A stretch of DNA of 64,000 bases from Dyella flava (GTDB lineage Bacteria > Pseudomonadota > Gammaproteobacteria > Xanthomonadales > Rhodanobacteraceae), in contig NZ_JADIKE010000036.1 of the NCBI RefSeq assembly GCF_016904955.1, positions 262,021 through 326,020 of the forward strand. Reading direction: 5' to 3'. Of this stretch, positions 48,803-52,524 are shown one piece after another. The first letter of the stretch is position 1, and the number at the start of each line of letters is the position of its first letter. The position numbers and the translations under genes were made by a program. The notes below the pieces were generated by a model. That model saw nothing but the letters and a program-made list of their open reading frames with translations. It ran no database searches and was not told where the DNA came from.

Positions 48803-49402
48803 ATGAAACTCTCCGCACGTTCCGCCGCCCTATACAGCGTCACGTTTGCCGGCCTGCTGGCGCTCAGCGCCTGCGGCAAGAACGAGCAGCAGCCTGCGAA
48901 CCAGCCCGCTTCCCCGAGCACGGCGCCGGCAGCACCGAGCACCGCCGCCAAACCCGCTCCGGCCAGCACGGCGCCGGCTCCGGCCAGCACGGCCGCCAAG
49001 CCTGCCGCAGCCAGCACCGCGCCGGCTGCCGCCACGGCCGCTCCCGCTGCGGCGGACAACACCTTCCAGGTCGCCGACATCACGCTGGGCGATGCCGTCA
49101 CCCCCGATCACAAGGTGCGCAAGGAAGTCGACACGTTCGCGCCGAACCAGAAGACCATCTATGTCAGCGTTGACACCAGCGGCAGCACCACTGGCGCCAC
49201 GCTCAATGCCAAGTGGAGCTACCTGGAAGGCAACGGTGAACTGGTGAATAGCGTCAGCCAGTCGATCGTTGCCGATGGTCCGGCCACCACCACCTTCCGC
49301 GTGCAGAACCCGGACCTGTGGCCGGTGGGCAAGTACAAGGTGGACATCCTGCTTGATGGCAAGCAGGTCGCGAGCAAGACCTTCGAAATCAAGAAGAGCT
49401 GA
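48803..49402 (+). CDS. Hypothetical lipoprotein with Ala/Pro/Ser linker
   Basis: A 199-residue protein. ATG 48803 gives MKLSARSAALYSVTFAGLLALSACGKN with lipobox LSAC, so it is a lipoprotein. The longer TTG start at 48776 would spoil the signal peptide. An Ala/Pro/Ser/Thr linker with imperfect repeats (APAPASTAAKPAAASTAPAAAT) spans about 30-90. It is followed by a beta-rich domain (TFQVADITLGDAVTPDHKVRKEV...LLDGKQVASKTFEIKKS). I do not recognise its function. A strong terminator follows. Confidence 0.8.
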   Translation: MKLSARSAALYSVTFAGLLALSACGKNEQQPANQPASPSTAPAAPSTAAKPAPASTAPAPASTAAKPAAASTAPAAATAAPAAADNTFQVADITLGDAVTPDHKVRKEVDTFAPNQKTIYVSVDTSGSTTGATLNAKWSYLEGNGELVNSVSQSIVADGPATTTFRVQNPDLWPVGKYKVDILLDGKQVASKTFEIKKS

Positions 49403-49424
49403 GCCTCGCCGACATGATGTAGAT

Positions 49425-49450
49425 GGGGCGCCCCACGGGCGCCCCTTTTT
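49425..49450 (+). terminator. Intrinsic terminator of the lipoprotein gene
   Basis: The perfect stem GGGGCGCCC/GGGCGCCCC with a 3-base loop is followed by five T. Confidence 0.92.
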
Positions 49451-49609
49451 CGTTGAACATGTTCCATCGAGCACGTCCCGTTGAAATGTCCTCGTCACGC
49501 GCACCGTTGCGGATGCGCCCTTGAGCGGACCTTTGGCGTCGGACATGTCGTCGCGCATGGCATCGCAAGTTATTACCTGCAATGTCTGATGTGGCACCAT
49601 CGCAGTGTG
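49451..49609. other. Intergenic DNA, nothing recognised
   Basis: No gene or clear motif is seen between the terminator and the palindromic element. Confidence 0.5.
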
Positions 49610-49898
49610 AGGGATGCTCTAATCCATTCCCCGCAGATGGCATGATGCCCAGAAGGCTCTCAGGGTGTGTCGCGCGGCGCAGGGAAGACTGGCCGTCTTT
49701 TCAAGCCGGGCGGCGCAGGCTGAGAGCCTTCTGGGCATCACCCCATTAGTAAATCCAAAACGCAGTGCTGGCCCTGTCTGTCCGCATGCCTTCGGTCCAT
49801 CGTCTCGACAGACGGCCAGTCTGCCTTCGCCGATGACCCGGTGGCCTGCGAACAGACAGGGCCAGTGCCACCTGTGGCGAATGGATTAGAGCATCCCT
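49610..49898. mobile_element. Nested palindromic element (MITE-like or structured RNA)
   Basis: A 289-bp block is bounded by 33-bp terminal inverted repeats (49610-49642 and 49866-49898, three mismatches). Inside are two further stems. A 21-bp perfect stem lies at 49643-49663/49720-49740, and a 23-bp stem with two mismatches lies at 49768-49790/49843-49865. The two stem interiors carry a 13-bp sequence, AGACTGGCCGTCT (49686-49698), whose exact complement is at 49810-49822. No coding frame with an SD is seen and no target-site duplication is evident. It ends 22 bases before the mprF start. Confidence 0.8.
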
Positions 49899-49920
49899 AA
49901 GGAATCGAGAGAGTCGTAGC

Positions 49921-52524
49921 GTGGAGCAACAAGGCGGGGCCGAAGTCCTTAGCCAAGAAGATGCCTTGAGCCGGCAGGGCCCGGTCTGGTTGCGTCGATT
50001 CGGTGGTCCGGCATTGTCGGTGCTGATGCTGTGCCTGGCGCTGTGGGCGCTGTACCGGCTGGCCGGCGAGGTGAGCTATCACCAGGTCGGCGAGTACATG
50101 CATCGCCTGCGCCGCGGACGTATCGGCCAGGCTATCGTGCTGACCGCGCTCGGCTATGCGGTGATGCCGTTCTACGATCTGTTCGCGCTGAATTCGATTG
50201 GCCGCAAACTGCCGCGTCCGCGCGTCGCACTGATTTCTTTTATCAGCTACGCCTTCAGCAATACGCTGGGCATGGCGATGCTGGTGTCCGGCTCGATCCG
50301 TTATCGCTTCTATATCCAGGCCGGCTTGTCGACGATGGAAGTGGCCAGGGTCGTGTTGTTCTGCACGATCAGCTTCTGGCTCGGCCTGTTCACGATCACC
50401 GGCGTCACGCTGATATTGGTGCCATTGCCGACCGGTTTGCCGCTGGCGTCCGCACGTGTGCTGCTCGGCGTGACACTTTGCGTGATTCCTTCGCTGTGGT
50501 TGCTTGGCGGCGCCTTGATGCGCCGGCCGATTCGTCTGTGGCGCTGGCATTTTCGATTGCCGCCGGTGACGGTCGGCCTGCGCCAGGTGCTCGTCGGGGC
50601 GGTGGACTGGGGGCTGGCCGCCGCCGTGCTGTATGCGCTGATGCCCGATGCGATGGTGCTGCATTTCGGCTCGTTCCTGGCGATTTTTGCGCTGGCGCAG
50701 ATCGCGGGCCTGATCAGCCATGTGCCGGGCGGTCTGGGCGTGTTCGAAGCGGTGATGCTGGCCGGCTTTGGCGCCACCGGCAATCAGGCGCTTTCGGCAC
50801 CGATTCTCGGCGCATTGGCAGCGTATCGCGGCGTCTACTATTTGCTGCCGTTGTGCGCCGCGACGGTCGCCGTGGTGATCCGCGAAGCGCGCGGATTGCG
50901 CCAGGCTGCGCTGCTCACACCGTGGTTCAACGGCATCCTGCCGCCGTTCTTTGCTGGTCTTACCCTGGTCTCCGGCGCCGTGCTGCTGTTCTCTGGCGCC
51001 ACCGCGGCACTGCCCGGGCGCATGGAATTGCTCAGCGATCTACTGCCGCTACCGGTGCTGGAGGTTTCGCATTTTCTCAGTAGCGTCATCGGCATGTCGC
51101 TGCTGATTCTTGCGCGCGGACTGCAGCGACGGCTTGATGCCGCGTATTGGCTGACCCTGGTGCTGCTGATCGCCGGTGCGGTCGCCTCACTGCTCAAGGG
51201 CATCGATTACGAAGAAGCCGGCCTGCTGATCCTGCTCGCCGTTGCCCTCGCGCCTGCGCATCGCCTGTTCTACCGGCGCGCGTCAATGTTCGAAGTGACC
51301 TTCTCGTTTGGCTGGGTGCTGGCATGCGCGACCGTGCTGGGTTGCACGGTATGGCTGGTGTTCTTCAGCTACCAGCACGTGGAATACAGCCGCGACCTGT
51401 GGTGGCAATTCAGTTTCTATCACGGCAATGCGCCGCGCGCACTGCGTGCGCTGGTCGGCGCCACCGGCGTCGCATTGCTGTTTGCACTCACCACGCTGAT
51501 CCGCTCGGCGCGGCCACGCCCCACCCTGCCGGATGAGACCGAACTGGCGCGCGCATTGCCACTGATCAAGCGATTCCATTCCGCACAAGCGCACCTCGCC
51601 TTGATGGGCGACAAGAGCCTGCTGTTCGATCCGGAGGACAAGGCGTTCATCATGTACGGCATCGAAGGCCGCAGCTGGGTCGCCATGGGCGATCCGGTCG
51701 GCCACGATGATCGTGCACGACAGGAGCTGGTCTGGACCTTCCACGAACACTGCGAACGCGGCGGCGGCTGGCCGGTGTTCTATCAGGTCGCACCGGACGA
51801 TCTGGATCTGTATCTCGAAGTCGGCATGAGCCTGCTGAAAATCGGCGAAGAAGCGCGCGTCAGGCTGGAACACTTCAATCTCGACGGTAAATCGAAGAAA
51901 ACCTTGCGCGGCACGGTCAACAAGCTGACTCGCGATGGTCTGCGCCTGGAAATCGTGCCGGCCGCCAATGTCCCGGCCTTGCTGCCGCAACTACGGCCGG
52001 TCTCGGAGGCCTGGCTGCGCGACAAGCGCGTGCGTGAAAAAGGCTTCTCGCTCGGCGCATTCAATGAGCACTACCTCTCGCGCATGCCGATGGCGGTGGT
52101 GTGGCAAGACGACAAACCCATCGCCTTCGCCAATATGTTCCTGTGCGAAAACATGGAAGAAGCATCGGTGGACCTGATGCGCCAGCTACCCGACGGTCCT
52201 ACCGGACTCATGGATTATCTGTTCGTGGAACTGATGCTGTGGGCCAGGGCCGAGGGCTATCGCTGGTTCAACCTCGGCATGGCCCCGCTTTCGGGCCTGC
52301 AGAGCCGGCGCCAAGCACCGTTGTGGAACCGGTTCGGTGCGCTCATCTTCGGCCGCGGCGAGCGCTTCTATAATTTCCAGGGTCTGCACCGCTACAAAGA
52401 CAAGTTCGACCCCGAGTGGGAGCCGCGCTATATGGCAGTGCCGGGCGGCATTGCCCTGCCGGTGGTGCTCACCAATGTCGCCAGCCTGATTTCGGGCGGC
52501 CTTACTGGAGTTGTGCGTCGATGA
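49921..52524 (+). CDS. mprF: Phosphatidylglycerol lysyltransferase/flippase MprF
   Basis: An 867-residue integral membrane protein that transfers an amino acid from aminoacyl-tRNA to phosphatidylglycerol and flips the product outward, lowering surface charge and sensitivity to cationic peptides. Seen: a many-helix N-terminal half (about 25-530; UPF0104-like FISYAFSNTLGMAMLVSGSIRYRFY, GLISHVPGGLGVFEAVML) and a soluble DUF2156 domain (about 560-850; KAFIMYGIEGRSWVAMGDPVG, FNLGMAPLSG). The length matches the family. The start is GTG 49921 with GAGAGAG upstream. The amino acid attached (Lys, Ala or Arg) cannot be told from sequence. The stop overlaps the next start (ATGA). Confidence 0.93.
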   Translation: MEQQGGAEVLSQEDALSRQGPVWLRRFGGPALSVLMLCLALWALYRLAGEVSYHQVGEYMHRLRRGRIGQAIVLTALGYAVMPFYDLFALNSIGRKLPRPRVALISFISYAFSNTLGMAMLVSGSIRYRFYIQAGLSTMEVARVVLFCTISFWLGLFTITGVTLILVPLPTGLPLASARVLLGVTLCVIPSLWLLGGALMRRPIRLWRWHFRLPPVTVGLRQVLVGAVDWGLAAAVLYALMPDAMVLHFGSFLAIFALAQIAGLISHVPGGLGVFEAVMLAGFGATGNQALSAPILGALAAYRGVYYLLPLCAATVAVVIREARGLRQAALLTPWFNGILPPFFAGLTLVSGAVLLFSGATAALPGRMELLSDLLPLPVLEVSHFLSSVIGMSLLILARGLQRRLDAAYWLTLVLLIAGAVASLLKGIDYEEAGLLILLAVALAPAHRLFYRRASMFEVTFSFGWVLACATVLGCTVWLVFFSYQHVEYSRDLWWQFSFYHGNAPRALRALVGATGVALLFALTTLIRSARPRPTLPDETELARALPLIKRFHSAQAHLALMGDKSLLFDPEDKAFIMYGIEGRSWVAMGDPVGHDDRARQELVWTFHEHCERGGGWPVFYQVAPDDLDLYLEVGMSLLKIGEEARVRLEHFNLDGKSKKTLRGTVNKLTRDGLRLEIVPAANVPALLPQLRPVSEAWLRDKRVREKGFSLGAFNEHYLSRMPMAVVWQDDKPIAFANMFLCENMEEASVDLMRQLPDGPTGLMDYLFVELMLWARAEGYRWFNLGMAPLSGLQSRRQAPLWNRFGALIFGRGERFYNFQGLHRYKDKFDPEWEPRYMAVPGGIALPVVLTNVASLISGGLTGVVRR

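Follow-up and report, generated by a model that had tools for sequence, protein, structure and literature searches.

The window, a stretch of 64,000 nucleotides from a contig of Dyella flava, carries on its plus strand at positions 49921–52524 a gene whose product matches the LPG_synthase_C and LPG_synthase_TM domains and which is, by these domains, the lysylphosphatidylglycerol synthase gene mprF. A 289-bp element lies at 49610–49898, described here on the mprF sense (plus) strand, and ends 22 bases before the GTG start codon at 49921; the distance given in an earlier sequence-only reading of this locus and the identity of the gene are thus both confirmed. The element is delimited by its repeats, by family members in its own genome and by empty sites in relatives. 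An inverted-repeat search places its terminal inverted repeats at 49610–49642 and 49866–49898; these are 33 nt long and 91% complementary, form the 5' and 3' arms of the closing stem, and are of an end type also borne by an IS5-family insertion sequence (IS). Between them stand two long stems. Stem I (49637–49746, arms 49637–49678 and 49705–49746, 42 nt, 83% complementary) is indicated by repeats, predicted fold and covariation, and at its base it extends into the left terminal repeat, overlapping that repeat's inner end. Stem II (49768–49865, arms 49768–49802 and 49831–49865, 35 nt, 83%) is indicated by repeats and covariation. The spacer that separates the two stems, defined from aligned copies, occupies 49747–49767, and its CCCC/GGGG pairing is degraded in the mprF copy. 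Apex I, AGACTGGCCGTCT, is located at 49686–49698 of the plus strand (converted from contig coordinates), and its reverse complement, apex II, at 49810–49822 on the minus strand, within a stretch that is highly conserved in the family; in the mprF copy the two apices are complementary over 16 nt (49683–49698 and 49810–49825, 94%). The terminal repeats, the two inner stems and the mutually complementary loops had been noticed by the sequence-only reading, and all of them are present in the mprF copy. The predicted RNA fold of the element has an energy of −196.3 kcal/mol (z = −14.6), which none of 200 shuffled sequences equalled. The element contains one mechanical open reading frame (ORF) of 74 amino acids and is judged to be non-coding from the absence of a long ORF in the mprF copy. 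Upstream of it, TGTGGCACCATCG (49590–49602, plus strand) is kept with small changes upstream of mprF in relatives and may be part of a promoter, and a hairpin resembling an intrinsic terminator lies on the plus strand at 49425–49445, 3' of the preceding gene. A search for a sigma-70-like site in 49380–49960 found none, and the Rfam 15 covariance models gave no match at E ≤ 5 in 49400–50100.

The element is not the single-copy sequence that the sequence-only reading had allowed for. Its own genome, searched with the 289-bp sequence, has 38 matches that merge into at least 19 places, and the element bounds were worked out for 18 of these. Together with 100 copies from among the matches listed in relatives, mostly the best-scoring ones with a number of partial matches skipped, they make up a set of 118 copies. 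Matches occur in 24 of 61 genomes (its own and 60 relatives), namely in all 16 genomes of the genus, one of which (G007) has a single weak match, and in 8 of 21 genomes from other genera of the same family; none of the 24 genomes from other families of the order has a family match. The genus is Dyella by named records. Among named stretches with the terminal pattern, 25 of 60 are from Dyella and about half are from unrelated bacteria, where the matches are probably due to chance, and among those with two facing matches, eight of nine are from Dyella and one is from a Lysobacterales assembly. Plasmid and phage collections, searched in distant mode, yielded no family match. In 115 of 119 rows of a comparison of terminal arms, at least 22 of 26 positions match between the best pair of arms; in a few rows (for example L011) an inner stem had been picked.

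IS5 elements follow a YTAR target rule, and the 4-mers flanking the copies are YTAR-like, with CTAG (49), TTAA (28) and TTAG (21) prominent among 236. Between the left and the right 4-mer, 2.33 of 4 positions are the same, compared with 1.89 when shuffled; matching them as reverse complements raises the figure to 2.73 (2.00 when shuffled), which is what a repeat continuing into the target would produce. Where the left and right 4-mers are identical (28 pairs), 25 are palindromes. Because the target is palindromic and the reverse-complement agreement is higher, a 4-bp target duplication is hard to prove from the copies alone. The mprF leader is readable in 15 of the 16 genus genomes and lacks the element in 13 of them, and the joined flanks of the mprF copies in genomes G000 and G015 align with the element-free leaders. 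The G015 leader holds a member of another subfamily, with ends GGCGACGCTTATCACG, which has TTAA on both sides and stands 6–8 nt upstream of the G000 site. Since the subfamilies differ and the sites are 6–8 nt apart, the insertions in these two species are independent. Empty sites are found both at mprF and at a thyA-like gene.

Candidate partners come from relatives. In G003, a piece of an IS5-family transposase lies between the ends TTAGGGATGCTCTGA and CTAGGGATGCTCTGA; this piece, the one that was scanned, matches NF033581 with an E value of 2.7e-92 and is interrupted by a stop. G003 and G005 have DDE_Tnp_1 genes between ends that share at least 13 bases with the element ends, G011 has such a gene beside one matching end, and the element end L314 and the IS end L129, both in G003, are identical over their first 24 bases and have GGCATG in common as well. 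PF01609, the sole model used in the element's own genome, revealed no IS5-type partner there; the only DDE_Tnp_1 gene of that genome, next to L015, is ruled out as a partner by its unrelated ends, CAAAGGGGTCAGA. An IS with the second end type, GGCAACGCTGAATAAGT, was also looked for; G003 has many matches to it, and the loci inspected are mostly single ends or element copies, with no IS. The end GGCAACGCTGAATAAGTATCG occurs at L322, L327, L332 and L347 of G003 without a clear second end within the locus, and a decayed family copy at G000:C34:200500-204000 (L112) has beside it a transposon-like gene whose 34-bp ends are perfect and begin with CAAAGGGGTCAGAACC. The terminal repeats of the element correspond to an end of one IS5-family IS present in Dyella, and its ends and target are of the IS5 type. 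The element is a miniature inverted-repeat transposable element (MITE), a conclusion that is well supported, and copy number, IS5-type ends, target preference and empty sites all speak for the proposal that a MITE lies in the mprF leader.

Covariation was analysed in 40 copies chosen from 74 long-spacer copies of 284–297 nt, a set that leaves out most members of the two divergent subfamilies. In seven helices with 107 pairs, 97.9% of the cells are paired, compared with 89.3% when shuffled and 33–40% when slid. Compensatory changes, on both sides of a pair, are seen in 76 of the 107 pairs against 27.6 when shuffled, and in 366 cells against 77.4, and no measure reached these values in any of 500 shuffles. 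The same helices appear in a consensus fold built from 102 copies with the subfamilies among them. The closing repeat, stem I, a CCCC/GGGG mini-hairpin and stem II come together in a four-way junction that leaves almost no bases unpaired. Among 104 aligned copies, 79 have this mini-hairpin, with a longer loop, as their spacer; the other 25, which are all of the short-spacer copies, have a C(TNCG)G hairpin whose N is T in 21, C in 3 and A in 1. Loops of the UNCG class are very stable in RNA, and C(GNA)G, which complements the TNCG loop, forms a stable hairpin in DNA, so the loop alone does not decide for RNA. Sequence conservation in the family is high at the junction and in the region around apex II, and stem II can diverge strongly in sequence and still pair, as in L012. 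Strong covariation, the check on pairing that the sequence-only reading had proposed, supports a structured fold.

Changes were counted on a tree of 102 copies, with L308 and L292 left out, and these counts depend on one alignment and one tree. On the plus strand, Watson–Crick pairs in the inner half of stem I changed to G-U 105 times and to A-C 12 times, and on internal branches 25 times and never, respectively. A simple C-to-T strand bias is ruled out as the cause of this excess, because U-A changed to U-G 22 times and never to C-A; in unpaired columns C-to-U and G-to-A changes are similarly frequent (105 and 94). At four stem I columns U-G or G-U is the commonest pair. The outer half of stem I has 13 G-U against 7 A-C changes, stem II leans the opposite way (30 against 46), and the closing stem, with 209 double and 100 single changes, is balanced (44 against 36), as expected from arm copying or matched ends. 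Therefore, the fold does not behave as a plus-strand RNA throughout, and for the closing stem selection on RNA and arm copying in DNA are indistinguishable. In RNAfold predictions the plus strand is the more stable one in 72 of 114 copies and the minus strand in 41 (p = 0.0035), a count that, like all those made elsewhere than on the tree, treats related copies as independent. Copies with a start codon within 30 nt of the right end average 3.26 broken pairs, if anything more than the remaining groups (1.83–3.12; p = 0.16), and copies in antisense contexts show a comparable G-U bias in stem I. The comparison by gene context gave no sign of host-level selection in place. Since pairing is no better near starts and the antisense bias is similar, selection, if any, would act on the element lineage at insertion and not on each resident copy.

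Gene calls for the neighbours come from a codon model for which the window served as training sequence, and 4 of the 118 copies have no call on one side. Read in the orientation of the element, the left and right neighbours are ++ in 51 copies, −+ in 36, −− in 19 and +− in 8, and among the tandem contexts the excess of ++ over −− has p = 1.7e-4. The median distance to the start codon is 25 nt at the right end (n = 87) and 74 nt at the left end (n = 55; p = 1e-6). Where the nearest start codon is within 30 nt (n = 54), it is on the right in 46 copies and on the left in 8 (p = 1.4e-7), and in divergent regions the right gene is the nearer one in 25 of 36 (p = 0.03). The 46 right-end copies come from 15 genomes and face an ATG in 36 cases; by eye, from the first residues, some of their genes resemble thyA, dnaX, folK, folB, aroQ, rph and zwf. 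The bias persists where a co-directional neighbour ends within 10 nt (17 right, 2 left) and in start-proximal copies with a TNCG spacer (9 right, 2 left). An internal promoter in the AT-rich spacer is unlikely, since 25 of 104 copies replace the spacer by the TNCG hairpin and keep the orientation. At the thyA-like gene, a TANNNT box lies 6–7 nt before the ATG in 14 of 16 genomes, and in G001 and G009 the element stands 3 nt after the box (TAAACT) and 5 nt before the ATG, indicating that copies can stand between a promoter-like box and a start codon. Start-proximal copies outside operons have a TANNNT box just to their left in 7 of 25 cases against 10 of 68, which is not significant. An arrangement with the ribosome-binding site to the left and the start codon to the right is rejected as a general rule, the joined flanks being stronger in 13 of 31 cases and the actual sequence in 14 of 31; L266 and L277 do look like this. 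At the shared sites L219/L241 (the thyA-like gene) and L225/L232 the copies are not each other's nearest relatives. Gene neighbourhoods also recur across species (L016/L247, L249/L292, L263/L283, L272/L312 and L003/L231/L315), struck repeatedly and several times with opposite orientation.

The sequence-only reading had further raised the idea of a regulatory RNA able to switch between folds through its complementary loops. The apex loops of the mprF copy are indeed complementary, but across the family this is not significantly above the level with shuffled partners: among 96 copies, fully complementary 11-nt apices occur in 37 against 31.5 expected (p = 0.056) and complementary 5-nt loops in 41 against 35.4 (p = 0.077), a slight excess in each case. 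A fold switch through the apex loops is therefore rejected as unsupported, and a regulatory switch for mprF, with which neither the lack of an Rfam match nor the absence of the element from most readable mprF leaders fits, is most improbable. What stands of that idea is the structured fold, with its covariation and the plus-strand signs of G-U bias, TNCG loops and orientation. Of the 96 copies, 90 retain an intact 3-bp inner stem in apex I. L308 has its apex II segment in reverse orientation to the aligned-copy consensus, as if flipped within its stem.

Taken as a whole, the likely reading is that of a MITE mobilised by IS5 and residing in the mprF leader. An IS5-family transposase would mobilise the non-autonomous element in trans, with insertion at YTAR-like sites such as CTAG and TTAA. 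The mprF copy landed in a leader that is short, downstream of the conserved motif and ahead of the presumed ribosome-binding region, in the orientation favoured by the family before genes. Transcription from upstream would then yield a plus strand that folds into a single compact body within the mRNA, keeping the sequences on either side of the element close together and mprF translatable, and copies that fold badly or are reversed close to a start codon would spoil the downstream gene and be lost. The G-U bias, the loops and the orientation find a common explanation if the plus strand folds as RNA in leaders. By itself, the step in which this RNA folds out of the leader is tentative and falls short of being likely. 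Its extension to a "self-insulating" transposon, whose four-way RNA closes at its own ends so that a copy in a leader is folded out and the gene stays on, is a doubtful one; such an element might land between a promoter or ribosome-binding site and the start codon even of essential-looking genes, and selection for harmless insertion, not host benefit, would keep its RNA fold and orientation.

The element may instead be a plain MITE, whose arms match through the needs of transposition and through template-switching correction of quasi-palindromes, in which one arm is copied to the other, its RNA having no role and its orientation coming from chance events of insertion or loss. The excess of double changes without a G-U excess in the closing stem, a 1-base insertion present in both arms of L312 and L316, the inverted apex II of L308 and a pairing on which gene context has no effect all point this way, but the plus-strand G-U bias of stem I, the four columns where U-G or G-U is the commonest pair and the 46:8 orientation at start codons are left unexplained, so that this account is quite possible without being probable. 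Orientation without any RNA folding is what an outward promoter at the right end would give, if GTGACR and GAGCAT, separated by 18 nt, drive the next gene, partly as leaderless mRNA, and if minus-oriented copies fire into the gene's own promoter. GTGACR is present near the right end in all 31 copies with a start codon within 12 nt and in 77 of 83 others, and the left-end consensus, read outward, lacks it. However, the −10-like box GAGCAT is intact in 20 of the 31 start-proximal copies and 57 of the 83 others and thus not enriched, the search around the mprF copy found no sigma-70-like site, GGTGAC has another explanation as a piece of the junction, at the thyA-like gene the TAAACT box persists to the left of the element, and the stem I bias is not accounted for; such a promoter is rather unlikely.

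The plus strand might instead be selected as single-stranded DNA, in a folded intermediate recognised in transposition, with insertion preferring one strand near active promoters. Toleration of G-T pairs on one strand independently of context, and the stable DNA hairpin formed by the complement of the TNCG loop, would agree with this, whereas IS5-type ends and a YTAR target point to an ordinary DDE transposase acting on double-stranded DNA, and the orientation bias persists even where a co-directional neighbour ends close by; this explanation is improbable. MITEs are commonly regarded as passive debris. The Dyella family has very strong covariation and lies mostly one way round, a few bases from start codons, including those of essential-looking genes. 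If the plus-strand fold makes its insertions tolerable, the family would illustrate how a transposon can evolve an RNA structure for safe life in mRNA leaders, and its copies would offer natural experiments, already in place, on how genes behind very stable leaders are translated; if arm copying alone is at work, the family would be a fine record of how palindromes stay perfect.

Among known systems, IS5-family IS and their MITEs share with the Dyella family the ends AGGGATGCTCTGA and variants and the YTAR target, but the similarity was noticed at the ends only and the interior of the element is built of hairpins. The bcr1 repeat of Bacillus cereus also has a conserved RNA fold. ERIC, CIR and NEMIS are the nearest kinds. 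In the available parts of the published accounts, ERIC/IRU/RU-1 of enterobacteria are small palindromic intergenic MITEs like the Dyella family; they are co-transcribed with their neighbours and have an effect on mRNA that depends on orientation (PMC2229807, PMC10969869). As described there, ERIC is 127 bp long with TA termini and a reported effect on the upstream transcript (PMC2229807, PMC10969869), in contrast to the 289 bp, four-way fold, YTAR-like target, IS5-type ends and position before start codons of the Dyella element. CIR of Caulobacter and Brucella resembles the family in its two long inverted repeats with a linker and a structure kept across copies, but the part of the account available lists no terminal inverted repeat for it and places a GANTC site at a loop (PMC2229807), where the Dyella element has 33-bp terminal repeats with IS5-type ends. 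The Correia/NEMIS elements of Neisseria are also terminal-repeat MITEs near genes, and their hairpin RNA is cut by RNase III; in the parts of the accounts seen they have 24-bp ends with TA termini, and inner covarying arms are not described (PMC2229807, PMC10969869). The ERIC, CIR and NEMIS accounts in these two papers do not, in the parts available, describe the combination of features of the Dyella element, a keyword look-up in the available part of PMC2267715 gave no match, and no description of the family was found among the matches listed from the open-access literature. In the element's own genome, the copies L007, L008, L009, L010, L015, L024 and L025 have additional hairpins nested inside them, each about 50 bp long (GAGGGTACATGGATGTACCCGGC...GAGGAGCGAGGAAGGCA and variant forms) and up to two per copy, as an element inside an element, and a 49-bp stretch at G000:C24:27932-27980 holds only two facing terminal repeats, a REP-like remnant.
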